DNA of 64,000 nucleotides from Elusimicrobiales bacterium (GTDB lineage: Bacteria > Elusimicrobiota > Elusimicrobia > Elusimicrobiales > UBA9959). The stretch is from the NCBI GenBank assembly GCA_028688015.1, contig JAQTZB010000007.1, forward strand, positions 124,001-188,000. Direction: 5' to 3'. Each line of letters starts with the position of its first letter. Position 1 is the stretch's first letter. Positions 829 through 62,834 of this stretch are shown one piece after another. The position numbers and the translations under genes were made by a program. The notes beneath the pieces are model-generated. The model searched no databases, had not been told where the DNA came from, and saw only the letters and a program-made list of their open reading frames with translations.

Positions 829-1842
829 CTACTTCAGCTCCGCCCGCACCTCGGGCAGCTTCAGCAGCATTTCCTTCACTTGCTTCACGTTCAGGCGCTC
901 GGTGTTGTGCGAGGTATAATCCTCCAGCAGCGCCTCTTTCTTGTCTCCCTCGGTGAAATACTTGTTGTAGTTCAGGTCGCGGCTGTCCATGTTCACCCGG
1001 AAGTAGTCCCCCATGTCCTGGGCGCGGCGGAGCTCCTCGGTAGTGACCAACGTCTCGTAGATCTTCTCGCCGTGGCGGATGCCGATGGTCTTCACGGGCA
1101 CGTCCGACTTGAACAGGTCCTTGAGCGCCTGGGCCAGGTCGGCCACCGTGCAGGCCGGGGCCTTCCGTACGAAAATATCCCCCTGCCCGGCGTGCTTGAA
1201 GGCGAAGAGCACCAGTTTTATCGCCTCGGGCAGCGGCAGCAGGAAGCGCGTCATGTTCGGGTCGGTGACGGTGATCGGCTTGCCGGCCTTGATCTGCTTG
1301 ATGAACAGCGGGATCACCGAGCCGCGCGAGCACATCACGTTGCCGTAGCGCACGCAGGACACGGTGGTGTCCTTCTCCCCCAGCCCGCGGCACGCGGCCT
1401 GGGCCACCTTCTCCATCAGGGCCTTGGTCATGCCCATCGCGTTCACCGGGTAGACGGCCTTGTCGGTGCCCAGGCAGACCACGCTCTCCACCTTGTGTGC
1501 TATCGCGGACTCCACCACGTTGTGGCTGCCCAAAATATTGGTCATCACGGCCTGGATCGGGAAGAACTCGCAGGAGGGCACCTGCTTGAGCGCCGCGGCG
1601 TGGAACACCAGGTCCACGCCCTTCATCGCAGCATCCACGCTGTCGCGCTCGCGCACGTCGCCTATGTAGAACTTTACCTTCGGGTTATTGAGCTCTATGC
1701 GCATGTGCTCCTGCTTCAGCTCGTCGCGGCTGAAGATGCGCACCTCTTTGTACTCTTTGTCGAGGATAGTGTCGAGCAGCTCGTGGCCGAAAGAGCCGGT
1801 TCCGCCGGTGATCAGGAGGGTCTTGTTCTTCAGGTTGGGCAT
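829..1842 (-). CDS. fnlA: UDP-GlcNAc 4,6-dehydratase/5-epimerase, FnlA/WbjB/CapE type
   Basis: A 337-residue extended SDR. The nucleotide-binding motif GGTGSFG is near residue 13. The family replaces the usual YxxxK with an MxxxK arrangement, and NAMGMTKALMEK fits this. LGTDKAVYPVNAMG, RYGNVMCSRGSVIP and TRFLLPLPEA match the soluble FnlA/WbjB/CapE group rather than PseB. These enzymes convert UDP-GlcNAc to a 4-keto-6-deoxy-L-hexosamine by dehydration and epimerisation. The gene sits 9 nt after the reductase gene and is followed by the 2-epimerase, which completes a three-gene UDP-L-FucNAc/UDP-L-QuiNAc set. It could in principle also feed the PseC-like enzyme further upstream, but sequence and position favour the local pathway. 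Confidence 0.92.
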   Translation of the reverse strand: MPNLKNKTLLITGGTGSFGHELLDTILDKEYKEVRIFSRDELKQEHMRIELNNPKVKFYIGDVRERDSVDAAMKGVDLVFHAAALKQVPSCEFFPIQAVMTNILGSHNVVESAIAHKVESVVCLGTDKAVYPVNAMGMTKALMEKVAQAACRGLGEKDTTVSCVRYGNVMCSRGSVIPLFIKQIKAGKPITVTDPNMTRFLLPLPEAIKLVLFAFKHAGQGDIFVRKAPACTVADLAQALKDLFKSDVPVKTIGIRHGEKIYETLVTTEELRRAQDMGDYFRVNMDSRDLNYNKYFTEGDKKEALLEDYTSHNTERLNVKQVKEMLLKLPEVRAELK

Positions 1843-8271: not shown

Positions 8272-9077
8272 TCGCTCCTCCCGGGCAGCCTCGCGGCCAG
8301 TTCGGCCCGGACCGCGGCGGCGAAGGACAGGCAGGCCGCGGCAACGAAGCGGGCAGGGCCAGCGGCGAGGTAATGGCGGCGGGCCAGCAGCAGCTCGCGC
8401 CGGAAACGCCGCCAACTGCCGGCGGAAGCGGCGCCGGGGTGGACGCGGTACAGGAACAGCGCGCGGTCGGAGGAGCAAACCACCTCTCCGGTCTGCGCCA
8501 GGCGCAGCCATAGGTCGCTGTCTTCTATGGCTACCAACTCACGCTCCTCGGAAAAGCCGCCGGCAGCCAGCAGCGCGCTCCTGCGCGCCAGCACTCCGGA
8601 GCAGGCGATAAAATGCTTCAGGTAAAGCCGTCCGAACACCCGGCCGGACACGCAGCCCGAGGGCCGCGGATAAATGGCCTCGGACGCCGTATCGCCGGTC
8701 AAAGTCTTGAACCTGGAATACGCCAGCACCGCGCCAGGCGCGGCGCGCAGGGCCTCCAGCTGGCGCTCAAGTTTCTCGGGCTGCCAGATATCGTCGGAAT
8801 CCACGAAAGCGGCATATTCCCCGGCCGCGTTCTTCAGGCCCAGGTTGCGCGAGGCCGCTATGATGCCGCCATTCGCTATTTTCAGAACGCGCAGCCTGGG
8901 ATCCTTTATGGCGGCCAAAACCTCGTCGGTGCCGTCGGCAGACTGGTTATCCACCACTATCAGTTCCAGGTCCCCGGCGGTCTGCTCCAGCACGGATTCC
9001 ACCGCCCGCCCGATGTAGCGGGCGTGGTTGTAGGAAGGCATTATTACCGAGACCAGCGGGGCTTTCTGTTGCGTCAT
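8268..9077 (-). CDS. Family 2 glycosyltransferase
   Basis: A 269-residue GT-A enzyme. The N-terminus VSVIMPSYNHARYIGRAVES, the nucleotide-binding aspartate in VVDNQSADGTDE and the metal-binding DSDD motif (AAFVDSDDIWQPEK, near residue 95) are all present. This is a typical GT2 that moves one sugar from a nucleotide donor to a lipid-linked acceptor on the cytoplasmic side. A C-terminal amphipathic/hydrophobic stretch (ARFVAAACLSFAAAV) may bind the membrane. The gene is joined to both neighbours by 4 nt overlaps (ATGA with the SDR gene before it, GTGA with the membrane protein after it), so it belongs to the same operon. Donor and acceptor cannot be read from sequence. Confidence 0.9.
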   Translation of the reverse strand: MTQQKAPLVSVIMPSYNHARYIGRAVESVLEQTAGDLELIVVDNQSADGTDEVLAAIKDPRLRVLKIANGGIIAASRNLGLKNAAGEYAAFVDSDDIWQPEKLERQLEALRAAPGAVLAYSRFKTLTGDTASEAIYPRPSGCVSGRVFGRLYLKHFIACSGVLARRSALLAAGGFSEERELVAIEDSDLWLRLAQTGEVVCSSDRALFLYRVHPGAASAGSWRRFRRELLLARRHYLAAGPARFVAAACLSFAAAVRAELAARLPGRSE

Positions 9078-10030
9078 CTAAATTGTTCGCAGAGGGTCAG
9101 CGTCTTCTCTATCTCGGCGTCCATGCTGCCTGCCGGAGTAAACCCGGCCGCTTTAAGTTTGTCGATTACATAGTTCACGGGCTTGGGCTGCGCCGCGCCT
9201 GTCGCGGCCGGGCCCGTAGTAATCGCGCCCGGTTTTCTGCCGTATTTGGCTTCGTAGACCTTTTCCACCCGGCGCGCGGCGTCCAGGATGGACAGGGAAG
9301 TCCCGCTGCCCAGGTTATACAGTCCATCCCCCCACTCCTCCGGGATGTCGAAGAGGAAATAGCGCACGGCCTCGGCCGCGTCGGAGAGGGTTATGAAATC
9401 CCGGTGTTGCGTGCCGGCGGACTTCAGCGTTATGGCGCCCGCCGTCTGCAGCTGGCGGCACAGGTCGTTGAACACCAGCGTCCAGGCGTTGACGTCCTTG
9501 TCCATAGGGCAGCCGAAACTGTTGGACATGCGGAAGATCAGCGTCTTCATGCCTTTATAGGCCCGGAAGTAGCTGACCCAATCCTCGGCGGCGCGGTGCG
9601 TGGTGCCGTATGGATGCGCGGGCATGGCCGGTGTGGCTTCGCTGATCGTGTCCCCGGCGGCGGGGCCGTAGACATGGAAGGTCGAAAAATAAATGCAGCG
9701 CTGCGTACCGGCGGCGGCCGCCGCTTCCAGGACATTGTAAGTCCCCTTGGTGTTAACCTCGGCCGCCAGCTCCGGGTCCCTGGCGCACTGCGCGTCGTTG
9801 AGCGCGGCCAGGTGGATGACCGCGTCGGCCTTGGTTTCGGCGAAAGCCGCCGCCAGCGAGCGTTTGTCCAGCACGTCTATCGGCAGGACCTTGAACTTTT
9901 CCGCCCAGGCGGGCAGGGCGCCTTTCACCGGCAGGTCGGCCAGCAGCACGCGGCAGTCCGGCTGGCGGCCCAGCCGCTCGGCCAGCCGCCCGCCCACGTA
10001 CCCCAGCCCGCCGGTAATCAGGACGTTCAT
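9074..10030 (-). CDS. NAD-dependent epimerase/dehydratase (extended SDR)
   Basis: The true start is the ATG of MNVLITGGLGYVGGRL. The track ORF extends into the frame shadow of the cupin gene. The 318-residue protein has the Rossmann motif GGLGYVGG, an active-site serine/threonine in YFSTFHVYG and the catalytic tyrosine in HPYGTTHRAAEDW. In this motif the usual YxxxK lysine is a histidine. FRMSNSFG and YNLGSG are as in other sugar-nucleotide SDRs. It overlaps the stop of the RmlC-like cupin gene as ATGA and the GT2 gene as ATGA. Its pairing with that cupin suggests a two-step conversion, 3,5-epimerisation then reduction or epimerisation, on a 4-keto nucleotide sugar. The exact product is unknown. 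Confidence 0.82.
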   Translation of the reverse strand: MNVLITGGLGYVGGRLAERLGRQPDCRVLLADLPVKGALPAWAEKFKVLPIDVLDKRSLAAAFAETKADAVIHLAALNDAQCARDPELAAEVNTKGTYNVLEAAAAAGTQRCIYFSTFHVYGPAAGDTISEATPAMPAHPYGTTHRAAEDWVSYFRAYKGMKTLIFRMSNSFGCPMDKDVNAWTLVFNDLCRQLQTAGAITLKSAGTQHRDFITLSDAAEAVRYFLFDIPEEWGDGLYNLGSGTSLSILDAARRVEKVYEAKYGRKPGAITTGPAATGAAQPKPVNYVIDKLKAAGFTPAGSMDAEIEKTLTLCEQFR

Positions 10031-19160: not shown

Positions 19161-20444
19161 CTATTCCGCGCCTCCGCTCAAGGCCGTCAGCACGGACGGG
19201 AGAGAGAAAGGCGTCTTCAGGTAGCGCGCCAGTACCGCCGTGGCCACCGCTTTTTTACCGGCGATTAACTGCGCGAGCTCGGCTGGCGCGCCCGCGCAGG
19301 GTACGCCGGGCTCAGAGCCGTCGAAAGGCGGCACCAAAGGGTAGTTGGTGAGGTCGCGGCCGTTCGCGGCTGGCTCGTAAACCAAGTAGTTGACGCCGGC
19401 CAGCAAGGCCTCGACAAAAACCGTGGAAGTCGGCCCTACCACCAGCGTGGCCCGCTTCAGGGAGGCGGCCAGGGGCGCTGAGTCGAAGGAATAGAATTCG
19501 CCTCCGACAAAGCCTTTATACCACGCGGCGGATTCCGAGGGGTGCAGGCGTAGGCGGGCGCGCTTTACCCCGGCGTCCTCCAGCCCCTTGCGCACGGAAT
19601 ACAGGTACAGCGGCAGGTTGCCGCGGTCGCTGAGGATCTCCTCCCCGCTATGCTGCGCGCCATTCATGGATTTGGATATCACCAACACGTCCGCAGTTGA
19701 AAAGCGCGGTTCCAACGGCGGCGGCGCGGCAGGGCCGGGGCGGCCTGTTACGAAAATTTTCTCCCCCGGTACGCCGGCCTGCACGTAAAGTTCCTTTATA
19801 CGCTCGCCCCAGACCAGCAGGTAATTGGCCCGGTTGTCGTCTTTTGCATTATAGCGGCCCGGAAGCCCGTGCAAGGCGACGAACGACGGGCGGCCAAGTT
19901 CGCGGAAGGCCGCTATCGCGCAGCGCTCGAAGAAAGGCATATCGAAAGGCACCACCAGGGCGGCGTAGCCGCGCCGGCGGTAGAACTCGCGAAGCCCGGT
20001 CCGGAAGGCCGCGACCCGCGCTTGAAAGGCCGGGGAGAGCAGCGTCTTGAAGTCCGCCTGGTCAAAGGATCGTTTAAGGAAATCTATCTGCCGGTAAAGT
20101 TTAGCGTCTCCCAGTTCGGCAGGGGACAGGGTCCAGGGCGCCCCTTGTGCGACGAAACCAGCCTCCTCCAGCGCGGTGTTCAGGTTGAAATACGCGTTAG
20201 AGGAGATCTTTTCCAGCCCGGCCCGGCCCGGCCGGGAGCTGGGTTTGAGCCGCGCCGCGGCGCCGCGCACCAGCGTCTTGAGGCCGCGGTACTTTCGCTC
20301 CAGGTAAGCTCGCTCCTGCGGGTAGGCGAACTGCGCCCCGTAGTAATAGAGGCGTTTGTCCAGTTCAAATTTGAGCGCGTCGGCCAGCTCAGGGTCCATC
20401 CCCCCCTCTTCCTTCAGCCAGCGGGGCAGGTAAAAAGTTTCCAT
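19161..20444 (-). CDS. Unassigned GT-B-like protein, possible nonulosonic-acid or capsule transferase
   Basis: A 427-residue soluble protein I cannot place firmly. The N-terminal 130 residues are helical and charged. The middle has ALHGLPGRYNAKDDNRANYLLVWG, then LYVQAGVPGEKIFVTGRPG. The C-terminal half has RLRLHPSESAAWYKGF and VVGPTSTVFVEALLAGVNYL. A histidine-containing HP motif followed by a G-P-x-S-T stretch, with a serine/threonine before a helix, is seen in GT-B enzymes such as polysialyl- and CDP-glycerol-type transferases. It overlaps the class III aminotransferase gene by one base and follows the pseudaminic-like cassette. A transferase for that cassette's product is a reasonable inference, not something the sequence proves. 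Confidence 0.5.
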   Translation of the reverse strand: METFYLPRWLKEEGGMDPELADALKFELDKRLYYYGAQFAYPQERAYLERKYRGLKTLVRGAAARLKPSSRPGRAGLEKISSNAYFNLNTALEEAGFVAQGAPWTLSPAELGDAKLYRQIDFLKRSFDQADFKTLLSPAFQARVAAFRTGLREFYRRRGYAALVVPFDMPFFERCAIAAFRELGRPSFVALHGLPGRYNAKDDNRANYLLVWGERIKELYVQAGVPGEKIFVTGRPGPAAPPPLEPRFSTADVLVISKSMNGAQHSGEEILSDRGNLPLYLYSVRKGLEDAGVKRARLRLHPSESAAWYKGFVGGEFYSFDSAPLAASLKRATLVVGPTSTVFVEALLAGVNYLVYEPAANGRDLTNYPLVPPFDGSEPGVPCAGAPAELAQLIAGKKAVATAVLARYLKTPFSLPSVLTALSGGAE

Positions 20445-21763
20445 CAGTTGAACTTGCGGAACACCGGCTTAACGGGATCCCCGACGAGCAGGTCCTTGTA
20501 GGTCCCGGCTTTTATCGCTTTCTTGTAGGTTTTGAAGATCTTTTGGAATATCCGTATCGTCTTACTCAGTTCCTTCTCGCCGTGGGCCAGGCTGAACACG
20601 AAAGAGCCGCGGAATAACAGCCCGTTCTTAACCGCCTCCTGCATGACCAAGGTCTTGAATCCGTCGCTGAGCTGCTTCTCCGCGTCCCGGAAAAGCATCA
20701 GCAGCCAGCACGGATGCCCTTTCACGGTGATATACTCGGACAGGCCGGCGGCCTTTATGCCGTCCTCCAGCCCCTTGCGCAGCGTCTCGCCCATCTTGAT
20801 GTTGCGCTCTACCAAGTTGTTCTCTTTGACGGCCTTGATGGTGGCCATCGCGGCCGCCAGCGAATGAGTCTCCGCGCCGTGCGTCGTGGAGATCAGGAAC
20901 ACGCGCTCTTTATCGTGGTCGATGCCGCCCAGGTTCATGATGTCTCTCTTGCCGGCCAGCATGCAGCAAGAGAAGCCGTTGGCCACGCCCTTGCCCCAGG
21001 TGGTCAGGTCGGCCTGCACGCCCAGCGCGGCGTGCGCGCCCGGGTAGCCCAGGCGGAAGCCGGTGATCATCTCGTCGAGGATGAACACCGTTCCGTTCTT
21101 CTTGCAGAGGTCGCGCAGCTTGTGCAGAAAATTGTCCTGCGGGGAGTCGAATTCCATCGGCTCCAGAATCAGGCCCGCTATCTGCCCGGGGTACTTGGCA
21201 AAGAGCTCCTCGGCGGACTTGATGTCGTTGTAGCGGAAGGTCAGCGACAGGTCCGCCACCTCCTGCGGCACGCCGGCGTTGTTGGGCTTCTTGCCTATGT
21301 ACCAGTCGTCGTAGGAGAAGAAGCCGTGGTCGGAGCAGTAGGCTATGTACTTGCGCCCGGTATAGGCGCGCGCCAGTTTCAGCGCGGCCGTCGTCACCGT
21401 CGAGCCGTTCTTTGCGAACTTCACCATCTCGGCGCCCGGCACCTGGCTGATGAAATACTCGGCCAGCTCGCTCTCTATCGGCGAGGGGCACTGGAAGTTG
21501 CTGCCTTTCAGCAGCTCGGCCCGCACGGCGTCCAGCACCGGCTTATAGGCGTGGCCCAGGTTCACCGAGGTCAGGCCCATGGCCCAGTCCAGATATTTGT
21601 TGCCGTCCACGTCCCAGACGTAGCAGCCTTTACCGCGCTCTATCAGTTTGGGCCCCAGCTTGGGCGACTGGTCCAGGCCCTTGCTGTAGGTATGCCCTCC
21701 GCCCGGAATAAGTTCCTGGGCGCGCGCTATCATCTTGTCGGACTTTTCGAAGTTGGTTATCAT
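20444..21763 (-). CDS. Class III PLP aminotransferase, glutamate-1-semialdehyde aminomutase-like
   Basis: A 439-residue fold-type I PLP enzyme. The N-terminal ELIPGGGHTYSKGLDQSP and DVDGNKYLDWAMGL, the cofactor region FAKNGSTVTTAALKLARAYT, FILDEMITGFRLGYPGAH, and the Schiff-base lysine in TTWGKGVANGFS are all present. It resembles HemL, but HemL would be out of place here. Similar enzymes recur in flagellin and LPS glycosylation clusters next to NeuB-family synthases and SpsF-like cytidylyltransferases, where they probably aminate a sugar or a side chain. It sits between an aldo/keto reductase gene and the GT-B-like gene and has no role in the classical pseudaminic pathway. Confidence 0.87.
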   Translation of the reverse strand: MITNFEKSDKMIARAQELIPGGGHTYSKGLDQSPKLGPKLIERGKGCYVWDVDGNKYLDWAMGLTSVNLGHAYKPVLDAVRAELLKGSNFQCPSPIESELAEYFISQVPGAEMVKFAKNGSTVTTAALKLARAYTGRKYIAYCSDHGFFSYDDWYIGKKPNNAGVPQEVADLSLTFRYNDIKSAEELFAKYPGQIAGLILEPMEFDSPQDNFLHKLRDLCKKNGTVFILDEMITGFRLGYPGAHAALGVQADLTTWGKGVANGFSCCMLAGKRDIMNLGGIDHDKERVFLISTTHGAETHSLAAAMATIKAVKENNLVERNIKMGETLRKGLEDGIKAAGLSEYITVKGHPCWLLMLFRDAEKQLSDGFKTLVMQEAVKNGLLFRGSFVFSLAHGEKELSKTIRIFQKIFKTYKKAIKAGTYKDLLVGDPVKPVFRKFN

Positions 21764-21773
21764 GGTCTCCTCG

Positions 21774-22661
21774 CTATTTCTTCCAGTTCTGCGGCAGTAT
21801 TAAATTCTCGTCGGTCTCGGCCAGGCCCCCCAGCGCGGCCTGCAGGCCGGGCAGTTCCCCGCCGGGAAGCGACGCCAGCCCCTCTAAGTTATCCTTAAGC
21901 GCCGGCAGGCCGTCCACGCCTATCACCACCCGGTCCACCAGCGGATTGGCCAGCGCGAAGCCCGCGCAGACCGCGGCCGCCGTCCAGTCGCGAGAGGCGG
22001 CATAAGCCCGTATCATTTCCACCTTTGGGGCCGCCCGCCGCAGCCCCTCGGGGATGGTGGCGGCGTTCATCAGCAGCAGCCCCTGCAGGAAGACGGAGCG
22101 CACGTGTATCTCCACACCCGCCGCCTTCAGCGCCGGGAACACGCGCTCGAAGCGCCTGTCCAGCAGGCTGTACGGCACCTGCACTAAATCGAAATCGATC
22201 TTGGCGGCCAGCAGCCGCTCGGCCTGCTCCGGGTGGTACAGCGAGAACCCTGTTTTTTGCGTCAGGCCGCTCCGGCGGCACTCCAGCAGGCCCTCGTAGC
22301 GGCCCGGCTGCGCCAGGTACTCGTCGTAAGAATGCAGGAGCACGCCGTAGAAGCGGCCCACGCCGGCGCGGTCAGCCGAAGCGCGCAGGGCCGCAGTAGC
22401 GTCCGCGCCGGGCACATCCTTGAGCTTTGTGACCACGCGGAAACTGCCGGGCGCCGCCTTCAGGTAAGCGCCAATGGCGGCCTCGCTGCCGCCGTAGGCC
22501 TGCGCCGTGTCCAGCAGGTCCACGCCCGCCGCCCGCGCCAGTTCTAAAATTTCCAGCACCTCGGCCTGCCCCACCTGGCCGCGCGTGTTGGAAACGCCGT
22601 AAGCCAGGCCGAACTGCACCGTGCCGAGGGCGAGCTTCTTTATTTTTTCAGATGCGCCCAT
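21774..22661 (-). CDS. Aldo/keto reductase
   Basis: A 295-residue TIM-barrel oxidoreductase: LALGTVQFGLAYGVSN at the N-terminus, the catalytic-site DLLDTAQAYGGSEAAIG with Asp and Tyr, LLHSYDEYL, and a C-terminal NADPH-binding region (RVVIGVDGLPAL). The family reduces carbonyls using NADPH. A subgroup is found in surface-glycan clusters with NeuB synthases, SpsF and a HemL-like aminotransferase, as here. The gene overlaps the upstream PseI-like gene by 22 nt, so they are co-translated. A role in reducing a side chain or a precursor aldehyde of the nonulosonic acid is inferred from context only. Confidence 0.88.
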   Translation of the reverse strand: MGASEKIKKLALGTVQFGLAYGVSNTRGQVGQAEVLEILELARAAGVDLLDTAQAYGGSEAAIGAYLKAAPGSFRVVTKLKDVPGADATAALRASADRAGVGRFYGVLLHSYDEYLAQPGRYEGLLECRRSGLTQKTGFSLYHPEQAERLLAAKIDFDLVQVPYSLLDRRFERVFPALKAAGVEIHVRSVFLQGLLLMNAATIPEGLRRAAPKVEMIRAYAASRDWTAAAVCAGFALANPLVDRVVIGVDGLPALKDNLEGLASLPGGELPGLQAALGGLAETDENLILPQNWKK

Positions 22662-23701
22662 GTTAGAGGTGTACCCCGGCTTATTTTCCCGGCAGCGCGC
22701 CTGCCAATCACCTTAGGCAGGTTTTTAGGGGGCAGACCATAGGCCGGCCTGATAGACCGGACGTTCTCGTCTGTGAAAATTTCCCCTTTTATGATGTCGG
22801 CTACAGCAAACAGCGACCGCTTGAAATCCATGTTGCGCGCAGAGCGCGGGCCCGGAGTATAGGTTACCTTACCAAGCGCCTTCTCTATGACCCTGATGGA
22901 GTCGACCAAGCGTCTGAACTCTGCCGGCTCCGTAGAGAAAGGAGCGTCCGGTCCCTTATGCTTGCGGCTGAGAATGAAGTGCTTCTCAATAATCTTGCCG
23001 CCCAGAGCCACCGCCGCGCACGCCGCCTCGGTCCCTAGCGTATGGTCAGACAGGCCAGGAGTAACGCGGAAGCGTTTGGCCATGTCGGGGATTGTAAGCA
23101 GGTTGGATTCTTCCGGCAGGGCGGGATAGGCAGATACGCATTTGAGAAGCGCCAACCGCCGATTGCCGGCGCGGCGGCAGGCCGCAGCGGCATCGCGAAC
23201 CTCCGCCTCGTCGGAAAGCCCGGTCGAGATAAGCATCGGGCGCCCCTTAGAAGCCGCGTACGCTATCAGAGGCGTGTCGTTGGCCTCGAAGGAGGCAATC
23301 TTAGTCACCGGCGGGTCGAACCGTTCCAGAAAATCCACCGCCGTCCTGTCGAACGGGGTAGAAAAGCACAGCACGCCGCATTTCTGAGCCGTGGAGAACA
23401 GTTGATCGTGCCACTCCCACGGCGTGTAGGCTTTCTTGTACAGAGCGAACAGTGTTTGCCCGTCCCAGAGCGTCCCCTGGTTTATCACGAACGGGGGCCG
23501 GCCGCAGTCTATAGTCATAGTCTCCGCGGTATACGTCTGGAGCTTAACGGCGTCCGCCCCGGAGTCGGCAGCAGCCCTAATAGTATCCTTCGCGCGCGCC
23601 AGACTGCCGTTGTGATTGGCGGACAGTTCAGCTATTATGAACGCCTTGCCCGTATAGCCGGGGCTGAATAGTTTCGCTACGTCGCGTCTTGTGAATCCCA
23701 T
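22640..23701 (-). CDS. pseI: Pseudaminic acid synthase (NeuB family)
   Basis: A 353-residue NeuB-family enzyme: FIIAELSANHNGSLARAKDT, DAVKLQTYTAETMTID, NQGTLWDGQTLFALYKKAYTPWEWH, CFSTPFDRTAVDFLE, KCVSAYPALPEESNL, GLSDHTLG and VIEKHFILSRKHKGPDAPFS in the TIM barrel (residues 15-285), then a SAF-like domain (from about 295) as in sialic-acid synthases. The GTLWDG and AYTPWEWH strings are characteristic of PseI rather than NeuB or LegI. It condenses phosphoenolpyruvate with a 6-deoxy di-N-acylated hexose to give a nine-carbon acid. The substrate should come from PseC plus an acyltransferase; only PseC and a formyltransferase are present, so an N-formyl product is possible. Confidence 0.93.
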   Translation of the reverse strand: MGFTRRDVAKLFSPGYTGKAFIIAELSANHNGSLARAKDTIRAAADSGADAVKLQTYTAETMTIDCGRPPFVINQGTLWDGQTLFALYKKAYTPWEWHDQLFSTAQKCGVLCFSTPFDRTAVDFLERFDPPVTKIASFEANDTPLIAYAASKGRPMLISTGLSDEAEVRDAAAACRRAGNRRLALLKCVSAYPALPEESNLLTIPDMAKRFRVTPGLSDHTLGTEAACAAVALGGKIIEKHFILSRKHKGPDAPFSTEPAEFRRLVDSIRVIEKALGKVTYTPGPRSARNMDFKRSLFAVADIIKGEIFTDENVRSIRPAYGLPPKNLPKVIGRRAAGKISRGTPLTWAHLKK

Positions 23702-23711
23702 AGTTTACCCG

Positions 23712-24485
23712 TCAGACCGACTTCGGAGCCCAGATGTGCAGCGTCTCCGGGCCCAGGCCCTCAATCGGCGCCACGCCGGCCAGTGCCAGTTTGACCGCCA
23801 GTTTGTTGATCGGCGCGTCGTATTTCGGCTGACCCGAGGAGAGTCCGGCGTTGAAGACGCGGGAGATAAAGTAATACAAGCTCTCGAAATCCACCTTGCG
23901 CTCCAGGGTGAACTTTCCGGCCAAGTCGGACACAAATCCCTCGGTCAGGTACTCGTTGAACTCTTTCACAGTTATGGCCGGCAGGCCGAGGGTATTGCGG
24001 ATATCGTTGACGCGCTGCAGCGGCTCTATAAAGCACTCGATCATCAGGTACCTGCCGCCCGGCTTTAGAATTTCCAGTATATTGTCGGCAGCAGTATACT
24101 TACCGCGGCCCTTTGTATTGATCAGCAGGCGTTTGGAGATAACAGTGTCGAACTTTCTCCTTGCCCCGAAGGCGAAGGCACCCGGCGCGGTAGCGTCGGC
24201 AACGGCAAACTCGGCGTTGCCGATCTTGCGCCTCGCCGCCTCCTCCCGGGCACTGGCGACCATATTTTCAGAAAAGTCCATACCGAAGAAGCGCGCCCCC
24301 GGCAGTTTCTCGGCGAAATGCAGTATCAGCCGCCCGTTGCCGCATCCCACGTCGCAAATATCCGTATTGTCACGCAGGAGGCCCATCAGCAGGCTGTGCT
24401 CCAGTTCCTCTTCCATCAGGTCGAAATTCACCGCCGACATGCCGCCTTTGAACTGCTTGGCCTGGTTCTCCCAAAACTCTTTCAT
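23712..24485 (-). CDS. Class I SAM-dependent methyltransferase
   Basis: A 257-residue methyltransferase. NTDICDVGCGNGRLILHFAE is motif I, GARFFGMDFSENMVASARE is motif II, and ILEKPGG-type ILEILKPGGRYLMIE is the post-II motif. The C-terminal part (GLPAITVKEFNEYLTEGF, VFNAGLSSGQPKYD) looks like a substrate lid. It lies inside the pseudaminic-like cassette, coupled by a 4 nt overlap to the PIG-L gene before it and 10 nt before the PseI-like gene. O-methylation of the nonulosonic acid or of its acyl group is the simplest reading, but other acceptors cannot be ruled out. Confidence 0.87.
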   Translation of the reverse strand: MKEFWENQAKQFKGGMSAVNFDLMEEELEHSLLMGLLRDNTDICDVGCGNGRLILHFAEKLPGARFFGMDFSENMVASAREEAARRKIGNAEFAVADATAPGAFAFGARRKFDTVISKRLLINTKGRGKYTAADNILEILKPGGRYLMIECFIEPLQRVNDIRNTLGLPAITVKEFNEYLTEGFVSDLAGKFTLERKVDFESLYYFISRVFNAGLSSGQPKYDAPINKLAVKLALAGVAPIEGLGPETLHIWAPKSV

Positions 24486-25183
24486 TTTGCCTCCCGGCTG
24501 TTATTCTCGCGCACAAGTTCGAAAGCTTCCGCCTGCCCCAATCCCGTCCGGATACCGTGGTATTCGGCCAGGTTACGTATGGCGCGCAGCGACCGAGGAT
24601 GCGGGTACGCGCGCAACTCGCTCTTATAAAGGCGCATCGCGGCAACCTTCTTTCCCAGCGTGCCGCTTACTTCGTAAAAAACGTTCGGCGCGAACGACGA
24701 AGGATAATTCCATTCAGTGGACGACAGCACCTCGAACGAGAGTACGCGGCGCACGGTTTCCCCCTCCATCGGCCGCGTAGCCGTCAGCACCGCGTCGTAG
24801 GTCCTCTTATGGTCCACGTTCAGGTCGTTCCTGTGATGGGTAAAGATCAGCGAAGGCTTAAACTCGCGCTTGGCCCGGTCCACTATCTTGACAATGTCCA
24901 GCAAGTCCACACTGTCGAAGCGGTTATCCGGGAGCTCCGCCCCGAAGACCCTGCTCACCCCTATCTCGCGGTTGGCCAGGTCTCTACAGCGGCGCAGACC
25001 CTCAAGCTCCCTGCTGCATTTTTCAGGCTCGCGCTCATCCCCCCGGGAAGTCACGCCCTCGCCCAGGATCAGCGTGGCGGCGGTCCACCCCTCCCGCACA
25101 AAGCGGGCCACGGTGGCCCCGCAGCCCAGTATCTCATCGTCGGGATGAGCCGCCACTACCAGCAATCTTTTATTTTCTTTCAT
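24482..25183 (-). CDS. PIG-L family N-deacetylase
   Basis: A 233-residue LmbE/PIG-L protein. The zinc-binding AHPDDEILGCGAT is at residue 13, LPDNRFD in the middle, and the third ligand is in THHRNDLNVDHKRTYDAV. This family hydrolyses N-acetyl groups from sugars such as GlcNAc. It overlaps both neighbours by 4-14 nt and sits directly after the formyltransferase gene. An N-deacetylase next to an N-formyltransferase suggests acetyl groups are replaced by formyl (or other acyl) groups on a cassette intermediate. That order of reaction is an inference. All metal-binding residues appear present, so the enzyme should be active. Confidence 0.9.
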   Translation of the reverse strand: MKENKRLLVVAAHPDDEILGCGATVARFVREGWTAATLILGEGVTSRGDEREPEKCSRELEGLRRCRDLANREIGVSRVFGAELPDNRFDSVDLLDIVKIVDRAKREFKPSLIFTHHRNDLNVDHKRTYDAVLTATRPMEGETVRRVLSFEVLSSTEWNYPSSFAPNVFYEVSGTLGKKVAAMRLYKSELRAYPHPRSLRAIRNLAEYHGIRTGLGQAEAFELVRENNSREAK

Positions 25184-25874
25184 CTTTCTTCACCTCAAAA
25201 ACCCCGCGTACTATGTCGCCGTCCTTCACGGCCCGGCGGAACTCGAATCGGAATCCGCCGGCGGAGAGGAAGGCCGCGGGGTAGCCCTCTCCGTCAAGCA
25301 TGCGGATAAAATCGTACAACGCGGCCGGCGTTTCCAGGCCGGCCACGGCGATATCACTATCGCGCGGCTTCCGCCTGGAGAACAGCACCGGGCGCCCGCG
25401 CTGCGGCTTCGGGGCCGGCTGCCGGCGCAGCAGTTCCGGGATCATCTCGTTAAAAACCACGCCCGAGGCGGCCGATAGCATTTCGTCGGCGCTGCCATCG
25501 GACAGGTCCAGCGGGCGCTTAAAATATACCGGGCCAGTGTCGGCCCCATTGCCGGCCCTGAGGGCCGAGACCTTGGTCCGGCGTATGCCGCGGGCCAGCA
25601 GGTTCTGCAGCGGGCTGCCGCCGCGGCCAAAAGGCAGGTCGGTCATATGAAACACCACGCATTCGTGCGTCGAGTAGATCTCTTCGGGGATCATCCAGGA
25701 CCAGTGCGGAAAGAACACATAGCGCGGGGCCAGCCTCTCCAGCATCCTGGCCGTCAGGCTGGCCGGTTTTGAGACTATCCGCACCCGCCATTTTCCCGCC
25801 AGTTTTTTGCGCAACGCTCGCGCATTGCTCAGATTCCACCGCTTTATCGTCGCTATCACTATGGTGCGCATCAA
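25170..25874 (-). CDS. Formyltransferase-fold enzyme in the pseudaminic-like cassette
   Basis: A 234-residue protein of the formyl_trans_N fold (as in methionyl-tRNA and UDP-sugar formyltransferases). FHMTDLPFGRGGSPLQNLL aligns with the Fmt loop NIHPSLLPxYRG, and GADTGPVYFKRPLDL aligns with the catalytic aspartate segment DTG. His and Asp are kept, but the usual catalytic Asn two residues before the His appears to be valine. The N-terminal residues 1-100 would bind 10-formyl-tetrahydrofolate; the last 60 residues (MLDGEGYPAAFLSAGG) resemble the C-terminal domain of sugar formyltransferases. It would formylate an amino sugar made by the PseC-like enzyme, taking the place of PseH. I am sure of the fold, less of the acyl donor. 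Confidence 0.82.
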   Translation of the reverse strand: MMRTIVIATIKRWNLSNARALRKKLAGKWRVRIVSKPASLTARMLERLAPRYVFFPHWSWMIPEEIYSTHECVVFHMTDLPFGRGGSPLQNLLARGIRRTKVSALRAGNGADTGPVYFKRPLDLSDGSADEMLSAASGVVFNEMIPELLRRQPAPKPQRGRPVLFSRRKPRDSDIAVAGLETPAALYDFIRMLDGEGYPAAFLSAGGFRFEFRRAVKDGDIVRGVFEVKKDERK

Positions 25875-26647
25875 GGCCGCCCTCCAGCCACCAGCCCGGC
25901 CATGAACCTTACGTCCCCGGCAAAATCGTCCAGGCGGTCCGGGTAATTCTTTTCCGTCTCCAAAGTGATCCTCGCCCCGGCGGGGATCAGTTTCACTAAA
26001 CGCGCGAAATCGTAGCTGCCCTTGCCCAGGTGCAGGTGGCTATCCATCGTCCCGTCCTGGTCGCCGTCAGAGATATGAAAAAGCTGCGGTCCCAGCGCAA
26101 AAAAAGCCGCCAGCCCGGCCCACTTATCCGTCTTCACCGCATTAGCCGCGGCTATCGCGTGCCCGGTGTCGAGGCAGAAGCCGGCGCCGGAAAAATTCAG
26201 TATTGCCTTTATCCCTTCCGGAGAATATCCGGCACAGACCGCCCCGGGCACGATACCGAGGTAGGGCTTGTTCTCAACCAGCACCCTGCCGTCAGCAAGG
26301 CCTTTCAACTGGACGGCGGCTTCCTCGTCGCTTCCGTTGACTCCGGGATGGAAGATTACCTTCGGGGCCTTCAATCCGTCCGCGAAGCGGAATGCCTCCG
26401 CGGCCAGAACTTTATTCTGCTTACGGGCCGCAGGATCGGCCAAATTCAGACCTGCCATAGTGTGAGGCGCGTGGATAACGAACGGGATCCCCCGCTCCGC
26501 CAAGGCTTTCCAGGTCCCAAGGGTCCCATAGCTGCCGGGCACAGCGAAGAGCTCCAGGTAATGATAGATTCCGCGTCCAAAAAGCTCGACGGCGCTGTTC
26601 GCGTAGCCGGCGTTCGTAGACCAGAGTTTAAGGCCGTATTCGAACAT
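25871..26647 (-). CDS. Sugar phosphate isomerase/epimerase-like TIM barrel
   Basis: A 258-residue protein of the AP endonuclease 2/xylose isomerase-like superfamily: FEYGLKLWSTNAGY at the start, FVIHAPHTMAGLNLADP, VIFHPGVNG, RVLVENKPYLG, GFCLDTGHAIAAAN, LFHISDGDQDGTMDSHLHLGKG and ITLETEKNY. The histidines, glutamates and aspartate that bind the divalent metal are visible. The family isomerises or epimerises sugars, but no catalytic role in nonulosonic acid pathways is established for it. It overlaps the formyltransferase gene by 4 nt and shares one base with the SpsF-like gene, so it is clearly part of the cassette. Confidence 0.85.
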   Translation of the reverse strand: MFEYGLKLWSTNAGYANSAVELFGRGIYHYLELFAVPGSYGTLGTWKALAERGIPFVIHAPHTMAGLNLADPAARKQNKVLAAEAFRFADGLKAPKVIFHPGVNGSDEEAAVQLKGLADGRVLVENKPYLGIVPGAVCAGYSPEGIKAILNFSGAGFCLDTGHAIAAANAVKTDKWAGLAAFFALGPQLFHISDGDQDGTMDSHLHLGKGSYDFARLVKLIPAGARITLETEKNYPDRLDDFAGDVRFMAGLVAGGRP

Positions 26648-27492
26648 TAGCGTTTCTTTCCCGCCTTGGCCGCCAGCAGGGCGGCGGCACGGTGGAGTTC
26701 CTGCAGTTTCAAAACTCTCAGCGCCTCGCGAACCTCGTCGCTCTGCGTAGCTGTCACTTTTTTAGCTGCGCTGCGGCGGTTGATCTCTTCCAGCCAGGGC
26801 TTTCGGAGAAAGAGGTCCATAACCTCGGCGAAGCCGAAGGTCCCGCCCCGCGCGTAAAGGTTGTCGTAGACAGCACAGAGCAGCAGGTAATCGTCCGGAG
26901 TGTCCAGCGTCACCCGCAGGTCGGGCCGCCTCTGCCCGGCCGGCGCCTGCAGCGAGGCTATCTTAAATTCCGCCGGGCGGCTCCTTATGTAAAACGTTAC
27001 GTGCTCGCGCTCCGGCCGGGTCCGACCTTGCCGGTGGGCTCTTTGCAGAGCAGCGAACGAAAAGACCTCGGCATCAAAGCCGTCCGGGTAGGTCAGTTTA
27101 ACCACATTTGCCGTGTAATCAGCGCCGCGCCGCGCGTGCAGGCGCAGCAGGCTGTCCACCAGCGCGGGGTCCGCGCACGGGCAGTCGCTGGTGATGCGTA
27201 CTACTGTATCAAGTCGGTACTTTCCGGCGGCGCCGTAATATCGCGCCAGGACGTCTTCCCTGGAGCCCCTGAAAGTTTTTGCGCCCGCCTTCCGGGCCAG
27301 CCTCACCACGAGGTCATCGTCCCGGCCCGTAGTTGTAGCCACTATAACCTCGTCGGCCAGGCTGCACTTTTTCATGCGGCGGACCACCTGTTCAAGCACC
27401 GTTATCCCGCCGCCGTAGGGCAGTTCCTTCGCCACCTTGCCCGGCAGGCGAGTGGACGACATCCTGGCCTGTATTATAACGCCTGTTTTCAT
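26647..27492 (-). CDS. SpsF-like cytidylyltransferase, likely CMP-nonulosonate synthetase
   Basis: A 281-residue protein with a CMP-sugar synthetase fold in residues 1-235: VIIQARMSSTRLPGKVAKEL at the N-terminus, EVIVATTTGRDDDLVVRLA, RGSREDVLARYYGAA, TVVRITSDCPCADPAL and REHVTFYIRSRP. These match the SpsF/acylneuraminate cytidylyltransferase family. The last 45 residues are a helical Lys/Ala-rich extension. It should activate the nine-carbon acid made by the PseI-like enzyme with CTP, filling the role of PseF. The gene starts 2 nt after the PseC-like stop. A narrow alternative is activation of a different keto acid. Confidence 0.86.
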   Translation of the reverse strand: MKTGVIIQARMSSTRLPGKVAKELPYGGGITVLEQVVRRMKKCSLADEVIVATTTGRDDDLVVRLARKAGAKTFRGSREDVLARYYGAAGKYRLDTVVRITSDCPCADPALVDSLLRLHARRGADYTANVVKLTYPDGFDAEVFSFAALQRAHRQGRTRPEREHVTFYIRSRPAEFKIASLQAPAGQRRPDLRVTLDTPDDYLLLCAVYDNLYARGGTFGFAEVMDLFLRKPWLEEINRRSAAKKVTATQSDEVREALRVLKLQELHRAAALLAAKAGKKR

Positions 27493-27494
27493 TT

Positions 27495-28637
27495 TCAGGA
27501 GAGAACCTTTTTCAGGTTCTTCAGCACGTGGGCAACTTCCTCGTCGGTCATGCGCGGATACAGCGGCAGGCTGAGAGCCTGGTCGTAATACTTCTCAGAA
27601 TTAGGCAGGTCCCCCTTACGGTATCCGAACTCCTTGCGGTAATACGGCTGCAAGTGCACCGGGATATAGTGTACCTGAGTGCCGATGTTCACCTTCAAGA
27701 GAGTCTCTATCACCCATTTCCGGCTCTTCCCAAGCGCCTTAAAATCTATCAGCGACACGTACAGGTGAAAGGCGGAGAAGACGTCCGGGCGTTCGTACGG
27801 CAGCGTCAGGACCGGCAGGCCGGCCAGTTCCTTGTTGTAGCGGGCCACTATCTCCCGGCGGCGCTTTATGAACGCGCCCAGCTTGCCCAGCTGGCTGATG
27901 CCCAGCGCGCAATGGATGTCGGTCAGGCGGTAATTGAAGCCGAGGCGCTGCACCTCGTAGTACCACGGGCCCGGCTTGTTAGGGATGTCGCGCACCACGC
28001 CGCAGATGCGCATGGACTTCAAGCGCTCGTAAAGCTCTTTGCTGTTGGTGGTAATGGCCCCGCCTTCGCCGGAGGTGATGGTCTTCACCGGATGGAACGA
28101 GAACACGGTCATGTCGGAATGCTTGCAGGCGCCTACCGGGCTGCCGTCCTCGTACTTAGAGCCGATGGCGTGTGCGGCGTCCTCGATGATGTGGATCTTC
28201 TTGCCGGCCAGCGCCCGTATCTTGGCCGTCTCGCACGGCTGTCCGGCGAAATGCACCGGGATGATCACGCGGGTCTTTTTGGTGATGCGTTTCTTCAGGT
28301 CCTCCGGAAAAATGTTGAAGGTGCGCGGGTCTATGTCAGCCAGCACCGGTTTGAGACCACTGTAGATAAAGGCGTTGGACGAGGCCACGAAGGTATTCGT
28401 CGAGGTTATGCCCTCCATGCCCTTCTCTATCTCCAGCGCCATCACGGCCAGGTGCAGCGCGGCCGTGCCGTTGGCCAGGCAGACGCAGTACTTTGCGCCG
28501 GTTAGTTCGCAAATCTTCCGCTCGAACTCTTCGGCCACGGGCCCCTGGGTTATCAGGTCGCCTTTCAGCACCCTTGCTACAGCCGCCACGTCGGAGTCGT
28601 CTATCCATTGGGAGCCGTAAGGTATTTGTCTTCTCAT
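27495..28637 (-). CDS. pseC: PseC-like UDP-4-amino-4,6-dideoxy-N-acetyl-beta-L-altrosamine transaminase
   Basis: The ATG giving MRRQIPYGSQWIDDSD is the real start; the track ORF adds an upstream shadow. The 380-residue DegT/DnrJ/EryC1 protein has VLKGDLITQGPVAEEFE, CLANGTAALHLAVMAL, DAAHAIGSKYEDG, and the PLP lysine in FSFHPVKTITSGEGGA. YEVQRLGFNYRLTDIHCALG and the C-terminal VHYIPVHLQPYYRKEFGY also fit PseC. PseC transaminates the 4-keto product of PseB. No PseB is seen next to it, and the only soluble inverting dehydratase in the window is the FnlA-like enzyme near 1.3 kb. It starts 29 nt after the CDP-glucose dehydratase gene and heads the pseudaminic-like cassette. Confidence 0.92.
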   Translation of the reverse strand: MRRQIPYGSQWIDDSDVAAVARVLKGDLITQGPVAEEFERKICELTGAKYCVCLANGTAALHLAVMALEIEKGMEGITSTNTFVASSNAFIYSGLKPVLADIDPRTFNIFPEDLKKRITKKTRVIIPVHFAGQPCETAKIRALAGKKIHIIEDAAHAIGSKYEDGSPVGACKHSDMTVFSFHPVKTITSGEGGAITTNSKELYERLKSMRICGVVRDIPNKPGPWYYEVQRLGFNYRLTDIHCALGISQLGKLGAFIKRRREIVARYNKELAGLPVLTLPYERPDVFSAFHLYVSLIDFKALGKSRKWVIETLLKVNIGTQVHYIPVHLQPYYRKEFGYRKGDLPNSEKYYDQALSLPLYPRMTDEEVAHVLKNLKKVLS

Positions 28638-50258: not shown

Positions 50259-51398
50259 TTAGGAAACCTGCTTAAGGAGAGACTTAATACATGAACATGT
50301 CCTGTGTATATCCTGAGATGTCATTGCTGTGCCGGACGGGAGACAGAGCCCAGTCGCAAACAATTCTTCAGACACGGCACCACCAACAATTCGGCAACCT
50401 TTAAAAACCGGCTGCATATGCATCGGTTTCCAGAGAGGACGCGATTCAATATTAATTCGCTCCAGCGCCAACCTCACATTTTCCGGAGTGGTTTTAGTAA
50501 TAACTGGGTCAAGAGTCATAACAGTCAACCACCGGTTACAACATGCCCAATCAGGCTCCGGCATAAAGCCTACCCCAGGAATGCAGGAAAGGGATTTTTT
50601 ATACTCCTCAAATATTTGTCTCCGTCTCTTTACCCTAGACTGGAGCACTGCCAACTGCCCTAGCCCTATAGCGGCAGAAATATTGCTTAGGCGATAGTTG
50701 TATCCGATCGTATTATGCTGGTAATACGGGAATCTCTCCCTGGCTTGTTCTGCGAGGAACTTGGCATCCAAAATCAAGTCTCGATCGTCCGAGGCCAACA
50801 TCCCCCCACCTGAAGTTGTAATTATTTTATTCCCATTGAAGGAATACACTGCCGCTCCGGCTCCCTTTCCAGCAAAACGACCTTTATACTTTGCCCCCAC
50901 CGCCTCACAAGAGTCTGATATATACACAGCCCCATACTTATCACATAATTCGGCTGCTATATCCACGTCAGCAGGTTGTCCATAAATATCAGCGGTAATG
51001 ACCGCTTTCACCCTTCTCCCGGCTTTAGTTCTTGATTTCAATTCACACTCCAATAGGTTCATGTCCATATTCCACGAAACCTTATCGGAATCGATAAAGA
51101 CAGGTTTTGCCCCCAAAAATATTATTGGACTGACTCCGCCCAAGAATGTAAGCGATTGACAAAGAACCGCATCACCTTTTGAAACGCCAAGGTGCCGTAA
51201 TGCCAGATGCAACGCAGCAGTTCCAGACGCGACAGCAGCACAGAACTTAAACCCAGAAACATGCGAGAACATGTCCTCGAATTCTTTCACCTGAGGCCCC
51301 GCAGGAGCAATATAATTACTGTCAAATGCTCTCTTTACACAGCGCAACTCGTTCCCACTCATATGCGGTGGCGATAAAAATATCCGTTTATTTTTCAT
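50259..51398 (-). CDS. pglE: PglE-like UDP-4-keto-6-deoxy-GlcNAc aminotransferase (DegT family)
   Basis: The ATG giving MKNKRIFLSPPHMSGNELR is the real start; the track ORF has 63 shadow codons. The 379-residue PLP enzyme has FDSNYIAPAGPQVKEFE, AVASGTAALHLALRHLG, ADIYGQPADVD, ISDSCEAVGAKYKGR, the Schiff-base lysine in YSFNGNKIITTSGGGML, and NTIGYNYRLSNISAAIGLGQL. IAPxGPxxxxFE and SFNGNKIIT are typical of PglE/LegC-like aminotransferases acting at C4. It would aminate the PglF product. It lies between the PglD-like and PglF-like genes, which is a consistent order. Confidence 0.9.
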   Translation of the reverse strand: MKNKRIFLSPPHMSGNELRCVKRAFDSNYIAPAGPQVKEFEDMFSHVSGFKFCAAVASGTAALHLALRHLGVSKGDAVLCQSLTFLGGVSPIIFLGAKPVFIDSDKVSWNMDMNLLECELKSRTKAGRRVKAVITADIYGQPADVDIAAELCDKYGAVYISDSCEAVGAKYKGRFAGKGAGAAVYSFNGNKIITTSGGGMLASDDRDLILDAKFLAEQARERFPYYQHNTIGYNYRLSNISAAIGLGQLAVLQSRVKRRRQIFEEYKKSLSCIPGVGFMPEPDWACCNRWLTVMTLDPVITKTTPENVRLALERINIESRPLWKPMHMQPVFKGCRIVGGAVSEELFATGLCLPSGTAMTSQDIHRTCSCIKSLLKQVS

Positions 51399-51415
51399 GT
51401 TAAGCCTATATAGAG

Positions 51416-52051
51416 TTACTTCCCAATCTTTTTCGCTGGTGTTCCTACGGCGACACAATTTGGGGAGATATCCGACAATACGGTAGCCCCTGCCCCGATA
51501 ATACTCCCCTCCCCCACAGTAAGATTTGGCGCGATTGTAACGCCAGCGCCAACAAACGCCAAATCCCCGACCTTCACTGCGCCGCATAGGACTGTGCCCG
51601 GAGCCAGATGAACTCCTGCGCCGATTACACAGTCATGGTCAATACTGGAACGGGAGTTTACAATCACATTCTCGGAAATTATAGAGTCGGAATTTATTAT
51701 TCCACCGGCCATGACCACCGTTCCTGCCCCAAGCCTGACTCCCCTAGCAATCTGTGCTGACGGGTGTACCGCAGTAATCAGACCAAAACCAGTAGATTGC
51801 AACCACTTGGCTATCTGACACCTCGATCGATTATCCCCGATTGCTACGATTCCGCGTTTAACTTCAGAATTAATCAACTTTTCTCTCGCCCCTAGTACGG
51901 GATATCCATAAATAGTTTTCCCAAGAAGTCCAGGGTCATCATCTATCAATCCGAAGACAGAATACTCCCCCTGACGTTCCAAAACGTCAATAATGACTTT
52001 TGCATGCCCGCTGGCTCCAAACACAAAAACGGATTCTTTTATTTTCTTCAT
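51416..52051 (-). CDS. pglD: PglD/NeuD-like sugar O/N-acetyltransferase
   Basis: A 211-residue protein. Residues 1-85 are a Rossmann-like substrate domain (VFVFGASGHAKVIIDVLER, FGLIDDDPGLLGKTIYGYPV, VAIGDNRSRCQIAKWL). The rest is a left-handed beta-helix of hexapeptide repeats (GAGTVVMAGGIINSDSIISENVIVNS, SSIDHDCVIGAGVHLAPG) with the catalytic His in the DHDC turn. PglD acetylates the C4 amine of the PglE product to give UDP-di-N-acetylbacillosamine. The gene overlaps the PglC-like gene by 4 nt and precedes the PglE-like gene by 17 nt, as in known pgl clusters. Confidence 0.92.
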   Translation of the reverse strand: MKKIKESVFVFGASGHAKVIIDVLERQGEYSVFGLIDDDPGLLGKTIYGYPVLGAREKLINSEVKRGIVAIGDNRSRCQIAKWLQSTGFGLITAVHPSAQIARGVRLGAGTVVMAGGIINSDSIISENVIVNSRSSIDHDCVIGAGVHLAPGTVLCGAVKVGDLAFVGAGVTIAPNLTVGEGSIIGAGATVLSDISPNCVAVGTPAKKIGK

Positions 52052-52647: not shown

Positions 52648-52662
52648 CCAGCGGCACCCGAA

Positions 52663-53811: not shown

Positions 53812-53844
53812 TCGTCGGCTAAAGTAGGCGGCTTAACATTCAAA

Positions 53845-54603: not shown

Positions 54604-54616
54604 AAGCAGAATGCTA

Positions 54617-55621: not shown

Positions 55622-55627
55622 ATGTGT

Positions 55628-58221: not shown

Positions 58222-58279
58222 AGTTCAAAGGCCTTCCTGCACGTGGATTTCAGTCAAAGCGAGGCCAAGCATAGACCTA

Positions 58280-59053: not shown

Positions 59054-59099
59054 AAGATTCCACCCGTAAACGGCTGCGAAATATTACCACCGGCCCACC

Positions 59100-61185: not shown

Positions 61186-61188
61186 ATA

Positions 61189-61905: not shown

Positions 61906-61968
61906 ACGTGCCTAACGCCTTTCGGCCACATTCCAAACTGACCAAGAGTCAAACATGACTGGTTAGCA

Positions 61969-62826: not shown

Positions 62827-62834
62827 AAATCGCC

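Follow-up and report, generated by a model that had tools for sequence, protein, structure and literature searches.

The window, a 64,000-nucleotide stretch of an Elusimicrobiales genome (G000), contains a block of ten tightly packed genes on the minus strand (19161-28637) that in our assessment quite probably makes a CMP-activated pseudaminic-acid-type sugar, probably for transfer to a surface glycan, with an Endonuclease-IV-like TIM barrel protein (TIM), a formyltransferase-fold protein (FT), a PIG-L family de-N-acetylase (PIGL) and a methyltransferase (MT) doing the work of PseG and PseH. Within this set, the TIM barrel looks like a previously unrecognised substitute for PseG at the UDP-release step. 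Pfam and NCBIfam profiles located every gene named in the initial annotation, in one tightly overlapped block as it had described. PseC (27495..28637), a PLP aminotransferase predicted to form UDP-4-amino-4,6-dideoxy-L-AltNAc, scored 474.7 bits against TIGR03588 (cut-off 423.5), and the PEP-condensing synthase PseI (22640..23701) scored 469.9 against TIGR03586 (cut-off 340.25), so that both exceed their equivalog cut-offs. Between them lie an SpsF-like CMP-nonulosonate cytidylyltransferase in the predicted role of PseF (26647..27492; CTP_transf_3, PF02348), TIM (25871..26647; AP_endonuc_2, PF01261), the FT-fold protein (25170..25871; PF21553), PIG-L (24482..25183; PF02585, 84.1 bits, cut-off 28.2) and the SAM methyltransferase (23712..24485; PF13847). 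PseI is followed by an aldo/keto reductase (AKR; 21774..22661; PF00248) and a HemL-like class III aminotransferase (20444..21763; NF004856 581.1, cut-off 486), both assigned to the pathway, and by a terminal protein (19161..20444). Overlaps between adjacent genes reach 22 bp and gaps do not exceed 12 bp; the FT-fold and TIM genes share the stop/start overlap TGATG, with an alternative start, TTG, at 25874. The core of the block recurs in 80 other contigs, and its arrangement is therefore not due to chance.

None of PseB, PseG and PseH is encoded within the block. The earlier proposal of a variant route to a pseudaminic-acid-type nonulosonic acid is supported. It had seen none of the three genes; however, the window holds an inverting UDP-GlcNAc 4,6-dehydratase of the PseB/FnlA family on the minus strand, 26 kb away (829..1842; TIGR04130 474.1 and TIGR03589 325.4, both under cut-off), which is the best PseB-family match of the genome and a candidate supplier of the PseC substrate. 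The single PseG relative of the genome is diverged (64 bits to TIGR03590) and sits 2 kb beyond the window inside a second nonulosonate (NeuB) cluster, from which it could serve this block too. PseH over the cut-off was found nowhere in the genome, the top score being 25.9 bits. These relatives of PseB and PseG elsewhere in the genome tell in part against the earlier proposal, but a PseH is absent.

Comparison with sister genomes showed that the lack of PseG and PseH, previously taken as a gap, is a matter of replacement. In the same-genus genome G268 the gene order is PseC-SpsF-[PseG-GNAT fusion]-PseI-AKR-GSAT-GT, with GSAT the HemL-like aminotransferase and GT the terminal protein, and TIM-FT-PIGL-MT of the window occupies the exact place of the single PseG-PseH fusion gene, which is found likewise in a family-level relative (G223). 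Because the fusion gene stands where the window has these four genes, the PseG-PseH module was swapped for four imported ones. Identity between the window and G268 is 89% for PseC, 89% for AKR, 94% for GSAT and 80% for the terminal protein, but only 59% for PseI, and GC3 is 0.69-0.77 from SpsF through PseI versus 0.81-0.87 for PseC, AKR and GSAT. Such shifts in composition, along with the 6.9% contamination of G000 (many of the compared genomes are incomplete bins), would also agree with a decaying or chimeric cluster without a working pathway, or of an assembly or binning artefact. We regard this as very improbable, given that all frames are open and overlapping, that the flanking genes are mostly 70-96% identical to the syntenic G268 region, and that an Omnitrophota contig (L085) carries the identical gene set TIM-MT-PseI-FT-PIGL.

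TIM and PseG proved to be mutually exclusive. Among loci anchored on the FT-fold gene, PseG was present in 0/9 with TIM versus 53/73 without it (p=3.4e-5), and in those having both PseC and PseI the counts were 0/7 versus 32/37 (p=2.1e-5); SpsF and PseF, a known analogue pair, likewise exclude each other in the cassettes (p=1.5e-8). The pattern was repeated in a second phylum sampled with 384 genomes, where among genomes with PseI over cut-off PseG occurred in none of the 8 with TIM versus 50 of the 52 without (p=1.8e-8), and all 11 TIM genes of that sample are located in Pse cassettes. On the PseI tree the TIM/PseG state changed at least six times. One locus (L164) is an overlapping six-gene operon, PseB-PseC-TIM-PseF-PseH-PseI, in which five genes exceed their equivalog cut-offs and PseG is the sole absentee, and in another (L169) TIM is fused to a PseH-like GNAT, mirroring the PseG fusion of G268 and G223. 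Evidence against the replacement comes from five complete FT cassettes, most of them in candidate-phyla genomes, which lack PseG and TIM alike; in these the PseG step would be met otherwise, or the responsible gene was missed. Dependence of TIM on FT and PIG-L was rejected, since FT is missing from each of the ten new TIM loci found in the other phylum. A search for TIM on plasmids found none.

The TIM protein itself lies outside the GT-B/MurG-like PseG family (TIGR03590), and we propose it as an analogue of PseG, not a member of its family. Its structure model (pLDDT 93.6) has Endonuclease IV (Endo IV), epimerases and MbnB as PDB fold neighbours. Identity with Endo IV is about 21%, and the score of 27.8 bits compares with an NCBIfam cut-off of 244. 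The nine metal ligands of Endo IV are nevertheless matched by H59, H100, E125, D160, H163, H191, D202, H204 and E230, eight of them invariant in the TIM family and H163 kept in 8/9 members. The three-metal site is not peculiar to Endo IV, which counts against the replacement: oxidative enzymes sharing the fold (MbnB, TglH) use one as well. The initial annotation had called the protein an isomerase, and a metal-dependent sugar isomerase or epimerase that alters stereochemistry, with UDP released by the second-cluster PseG or an unspecific hydrolase, would agree with the xylose-isomerase-like Pfam fold, with the epimerases among the fold neighbours and with the PseG that G000 carries in its second cluster. 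We nevertheless judge this improbable, as PseG was absent from all 18 TIM genomes other than G000, no NeuC/LegG-type hydrolase was found in the TIM loci, the L164 operon is complete but for PseG, and the TIM-PseH fusion parallels the PseG-PseH one. Moreover, TIM keeps all nine Endo IV ligands, whereas the sugar isomerases known to share this fold have four. In our reading TIM very probably replaces PseG.

The FT-fold protein matched PDB 1zgh over its full length (profile E=6e-98) and is accompanied by PIG-L in 78/82 loci. The block is not a random assortment: Pse cassettes across many bacterial phyla and several archaeal ones carry this pair, usually next to PseG plus PseH or a second formyltransferase (FT2). 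The two proteins had been read as substitutes for missing enzymes, whereas as a rule they supplement PseB-C-G-H-I-F cassettes that are already complete. Since a GNAT or FT2 is also present in 38/44 complete FT cassettes, the FT-fold protein would normally serve the other amine, and a general role as PseH replacement was rejected. In this block it could still substitute for PseH, giving 7-N-formyl pseudaminic acid as PseJ does, which was the earlier reading; PseH is missing from the block and PseJ, by name a formyltransferase of the Pse pathway, has a solved structure (6ci2). We consider this unlikely, though deserving some weight, because its family is that of 1zgh and not of PseJ, and 6ci2 is not among its matches at E<=0.1, whereas a true PseJ relative in another locus (L059) reaches 150 bits. 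The catalytic residues point the same way: H76 and D112 are invariant among the 84 FT-fold members, but the site of the canonical catalytic Asn holds V, C or I in nearly all of them, otherwise L, G or T, and never Asn, so that the protein lacks the Asn-x-His...Asp set of sugar N-formyltransferases of the PseJ/VioF/ArnA type. With this Asn missing from every member, the N-formylated product foreseen in the initial annotation is uncertain, and N-formylation is assigned only tentatively. The genome encodes its true Met-tRNA formyltransferase separately, as a 317 aa protein in which N-x-H is present. In PIG-L the zinc motif AHPDDE is conserved (A12-H13-P14-D15-D16-E17). The methyltransferase occupies the position held elsewhere by PseH or a second formyltransferase, has relatives in four loci (L085, L086, L091 and L112), and its presence goes with the absence of GNAT/FT2 (p=5e-4).

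SpsF is fused to a GSAT or AKR domain in seven other loci (SpsF-GSAT in six, SpsF-AKR in the Vibrio locus L102), and SpsF, GSA-aminotransferase-like, AKR, PseG and formyltransferase domains are seen fused among themselves; the HemL-like aminotransferase is probably a nonulosonate pathway enzyme and not a haem gene. The terminal protein gave no family match in Pfam or NCBIfam and no PDB relative by sequence, and its structure model from three sequences (pLDDT 51) was too poor for use. It has conserved motifs RLHPSE and GPTSTVFVEAL, and its only clear orthologs are those of G268 (80%) and G223 (55%), both standing behind PseI-(AKR)-GSAT. We accept the earlier suggestion of a transferase and label it a putative CMP-nonulosonate glycosyltransferase.

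The cassette, the module swap, the fusions and the exclusion between PseG and TIM are seen in the sequences themselves, whereas each chemical step of the pathway is deduced by comparison, as follows. PseC, together with a 4,6-dehydratase that is probably the FnlA/PseB relative, would produce a UDP-4-amino-4,6-dideoxy sugar, on which the imported module would do the job of the single fusion protein of the sister genomes: PIG-L would strip the N-acetyl group inherited from UDP-GlcNAc, the FT-fold protein would attach an acyl group of another kind, such as formyl, to an amine, the methyltransferase would probably modify the other amine, the site of PseH/FT2 acylation, and TIM would free the sugar from UDP in the stead of PseG. 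PseI would condense the free sugar with PEP and SpsF would yield the CMP sugar, with AKR and the HemL-like aminotransferase introducing a further change and the terminal protein acting as transferase. More broadly, we think it reasonably likely that the TIM barrel is a widely exchanged, metal-dependent PseG analogue that releases the 2,4-diamino sugar from UDP through phosphoester chemistry, where PseG works by glycosyl hydrolysis, and that the 1zgh-family protein and PIG-L form a widespread N-acyl-exchange pair explaining 5-N-modified nonulosonic acids. If TIM is a PseG analogue, Pse pathways now annotated as incomplete are complete and a DNA-repair fold has been recruited into nucleotide-sugar chemistry; a single enzyme with a single known substrate would suffice to test this. 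The FT and PIG-L pair marks a large cassette class, probably with non-acetyl acyl groups on its sugars, a marker that would aid genome-based glycan prediction for flagella, capsules and archaeal surfaces, and it provides a way to reach 5-N-formyl nonulosonic acids of the kind made by Halorubrum.

CMP-pseudaminic acid is classically made by PseB-C-H-G-I-F in Campylobacter and Helicobacter and by FlmA-B-H-D-NeuB-FlmC in Caulobacter (PMC7591256). The block shares PseC, PseI and a cytidylyltransferase, here of the SpsF type, with this route but has TIM-FT-PIGL-MT instead of PseG and PseH, and the additional AKR and HemL-like aminotransferase. SpsF in the place of PseF, and the SpsF-AKR fusion that we found in Vibrio, have been reported for Vibrionaceae and Moritella clusters, for which PseG and PseH are listed while formyltransferase and PIG-L are unmentioned (PMC7371886). 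The Halorubrum sp. PV6 cluster is likewise a nonulosonate cluster with a predicted formyltransferase and a 5-N-formyl product, but follows the legionaminic route, with a deacetylase unmentioned (PMC6137143). The open-licence literature yielded nothing on PseG replacement, on PIG-L with pseudaminic acid or on PseJ in the text, although subscription journals may differ. PseJ (PDB 6ci2-6ci5) has the formyltransferase fold within the Pse pathway but is of another family, with a canonical N-x-H (INLHIS) where the window protein has V-x-H. PDB 1zgh is of the same family as the window protein, but its name, 'methionyl-tRNA formyltransferase', is a fold-based guess, and a plasmid-borne relative has the same label. 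Finally, TIM has the fold and metal ligands of Endonuclease IV (Nfo), but its context is sugar biosynthesis and not repair.

The block at 19161-28637 on the minus strand of the Elusimicrobiales genome G000 comprises ten genes, with neighbors overlapping or separated by gaps of at most 12 bp. Its PseC and PseI exceeded the NCBI equivalog cut-offs, and the remaining named families were confirmed by family profile searches. The initial annotation had seen no PseB, PseG or PseH; this stood for the block, and a genome-wide search of G000 for PseH returned nothing over the cut-off, but relatives of the other two were present. The genome's best PseB-family match is window gene 829-1842 (scores of 325 bits for PseB and 474 bits for FnlA, neither reaching its cut-off), which adjoins FnlB- and FnlC-like genes. 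Since FnlA and PseB form an identical first product, this gene may supply the PseC substrate. The single PseG relative in G000 (6.9% contamination; the genome bins compared are incomplete) is located just outside the window in a second nonulosonate cluster of low GC3 (L004 2305-6282, i.e., G000:C12:188305-192282), and could in principle serve the block. This cluster encodes a PIG-L protein, a WbqC-like protein, the diverged PseG, SpsF and a NeuB whose scores for the NeuB and PseI profiles (354 and 286 bits, respectively) both fall short of the cut-offs. GC3 is ~0.45-0.50 at window 50259-63953 vs 0.7-0.9 across most of the remainder, and this region is probably a recently imported surface-polysaccharide segment continuing into the second cluster. 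Downstream of the polysaccharide locus, L004 12258-13774 carries a tandem pair of near-copies encoding a 213-214 aa protein (MLYLYLDESGDLGFDF...).

In the same-genus genome G268, syntenic genes share 89% (PseC), 70% (SpsF), 59% (PseI), 89% (aldo/keto reductase, AKR), 94% (HemL-like aminotransferase, GSAT) and 80% (putative transferase, GT) identity with the window, and one PseG-GNAT fusion gene (GNAT, PseH-like acyltransferase) occupies the exact place of the window's Endo-IV-like TIM barrel (TIM), formyltransferase-fold protein (FT), PIG-L and methyltransferase (MT). The fusion is likewise present in the same-family genome G223; the TIM-FT-PIGL-MT module therefore took the place of PseG-PseH. 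Sliding identity against G268 showed that SpsF and PseI diverged along with the module, as expected if the substrate changed; GC3 decreases from SpsF through PseI.

An FT profile search of genome contigs yielded 80 contigs from Firmicutes, Proteobacteria, Bacteroidota, candidate phyla and archaea, or 82 loci counting the window and L047, which were annotated with profiles built from these same loci. PIG-L occurred in 78/82 and PseI in 72/82. The 44 loci with PseC and PseI mostly carried a PseB-like gene (39/44), SpsF or PseF (42/44), PseG or TIM (39/44), and GNAT or a second formyltransferase, FT2 (38/44); in spot checks, the six PseG and one PseH protein taken from these cassettes all passed NCBI cut-offs. 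GSAT was present in 19/44 and AKR in 16/44. In most cases, then, FT and PIG-L supplement a Pse pathway that is already complete. Domain fusions (SpsF-GSAT in six loci, SpsF-AKR, FT2-FT, PseG-FT and PseG-FT2) link these proteins to one pathway. NCBIfam NF004856 names the window's GSAT (20444-21763) glutamate-1-semialdehyde aminomutase; from the six SpsF fusions we argue that this family is a misnamed nonulosonate enzyme.

The exclusion tests take the locus as unit, although the PseI tree shows at least six switches. PseG was found in 0/9 FT-anchored loci with TIM vs 53/73 without (p = 3.4e-5). Independently, a search anchored on TIM across 384 genomes from Omnitrophota, the phylum of L085, gave 11 TIM genes, every one in a Pse cassette, the ten new ones without FT. 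Among the 60 genomes with PseI over cut-off, PseG occurred in 0/8 with TIM vs 50/52 without (p = 1.8e-8). TIM genomes other than G000 yielded no PseG, only weak 18-50 bit matches, mainly to the C-terminal half, which we infer to be MurG. The overlapping operon of L164 has the order PseB (535 bits), PseC (500), TIM, PseF (264), PseH (153) and PseI (443), all genes except TIM scoring above their equivalog cut-offs, and in L169 TIM is fused to a PseH-like GNAT, as PseG is in G268 and G223. The PseI tree needs nine changes of TIM label, at least six forced by supported branches, which argues for recurrent exchange rather than a single-clade history. PseF and SpsF are alternatives for one pathway step, and their exclusion pattern in the FT-anchored loci matches that of TIM and PseG. 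We therefore interpret TIM as a non-orthologous substitute for PseG. Five complete FT-type cassettes, mostly from candidate-phyla genomes, lack both (L060, L086, L097, L100 and L101), possibly a third solution for this step. An amidotransferase/HisH/HisF-like trio lies close to PseI in L083, L095, L098, L100 and L101.

The FT belongs to the family of PDB 1zgh and not to that of PseJ. His76 and Asp112 are invariant in 84 members, and the canonical Asn position holds V, C, I, L, G or T; G000's own Met-tRNA formyltransferase carries N-x-H. Members are named methionyl-tRNA formyltransferase (PDB 1zgh; plasmid AP017960.1 11891-12568) in a sugar biosynthesis context. As the PseC amine usually has an N-acyl enzyme of its own, PIG-L and FT would most plausibly exchange the UDP-GlcNAc-derived acetyl (future C5) for another acyl group; 5-N-formyl nonulosonates occur in Halorubrum (PMC6137143). 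The N-formylated product of the initial annotation is possible, but the missing Asn leaves it uncertain. L059 carries a PseJ-type formyltransferase (8843-9517) with GNAT, FT and PIG-L, giving three candidate N-acyl enzymes; a related gene lies upstream of FT in L096. WbqC directly adjoins FT in L077, L088, L099 and L105, and shares its cluster in L047. GNAT and FT2 were both absent from 4/5 MT cassettes vs 2/39 others (p = 5e-4; small MT sample, GNAT called at a loose threshold), and MT of L112 has PseG on one side and FT on the other, the usual GNAT/FT2 position. MT may methylate the amine otherwise acylated by PseH.

Family and PDB searches with GT (19161-20444) gave no match. Its HP and S/T motifs, conserved across three orthologs, resemble those of bacterial sialyltransferases. 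The G268 and G223 orthologs follow PseI-(AKR)-GSAT without the TIM module, which suggests that GT either accepts the altered sugar or changed together with it.

The TIM model (pLDDT 93.6) has the xylose-isomerase/Endo IV fold. Alignment to M. tuberculosis Endo IV filled nine of nine ligand positions, eight invariant among nine homologs and the ninth retained in 8/9; sugar isomerases of this fold retain four. TIM would most likely act as a three-metal phosphoesterase, splitting UDP from the sugar, although the same metal site is found in iron oxidases of the MbnB/TglH type.
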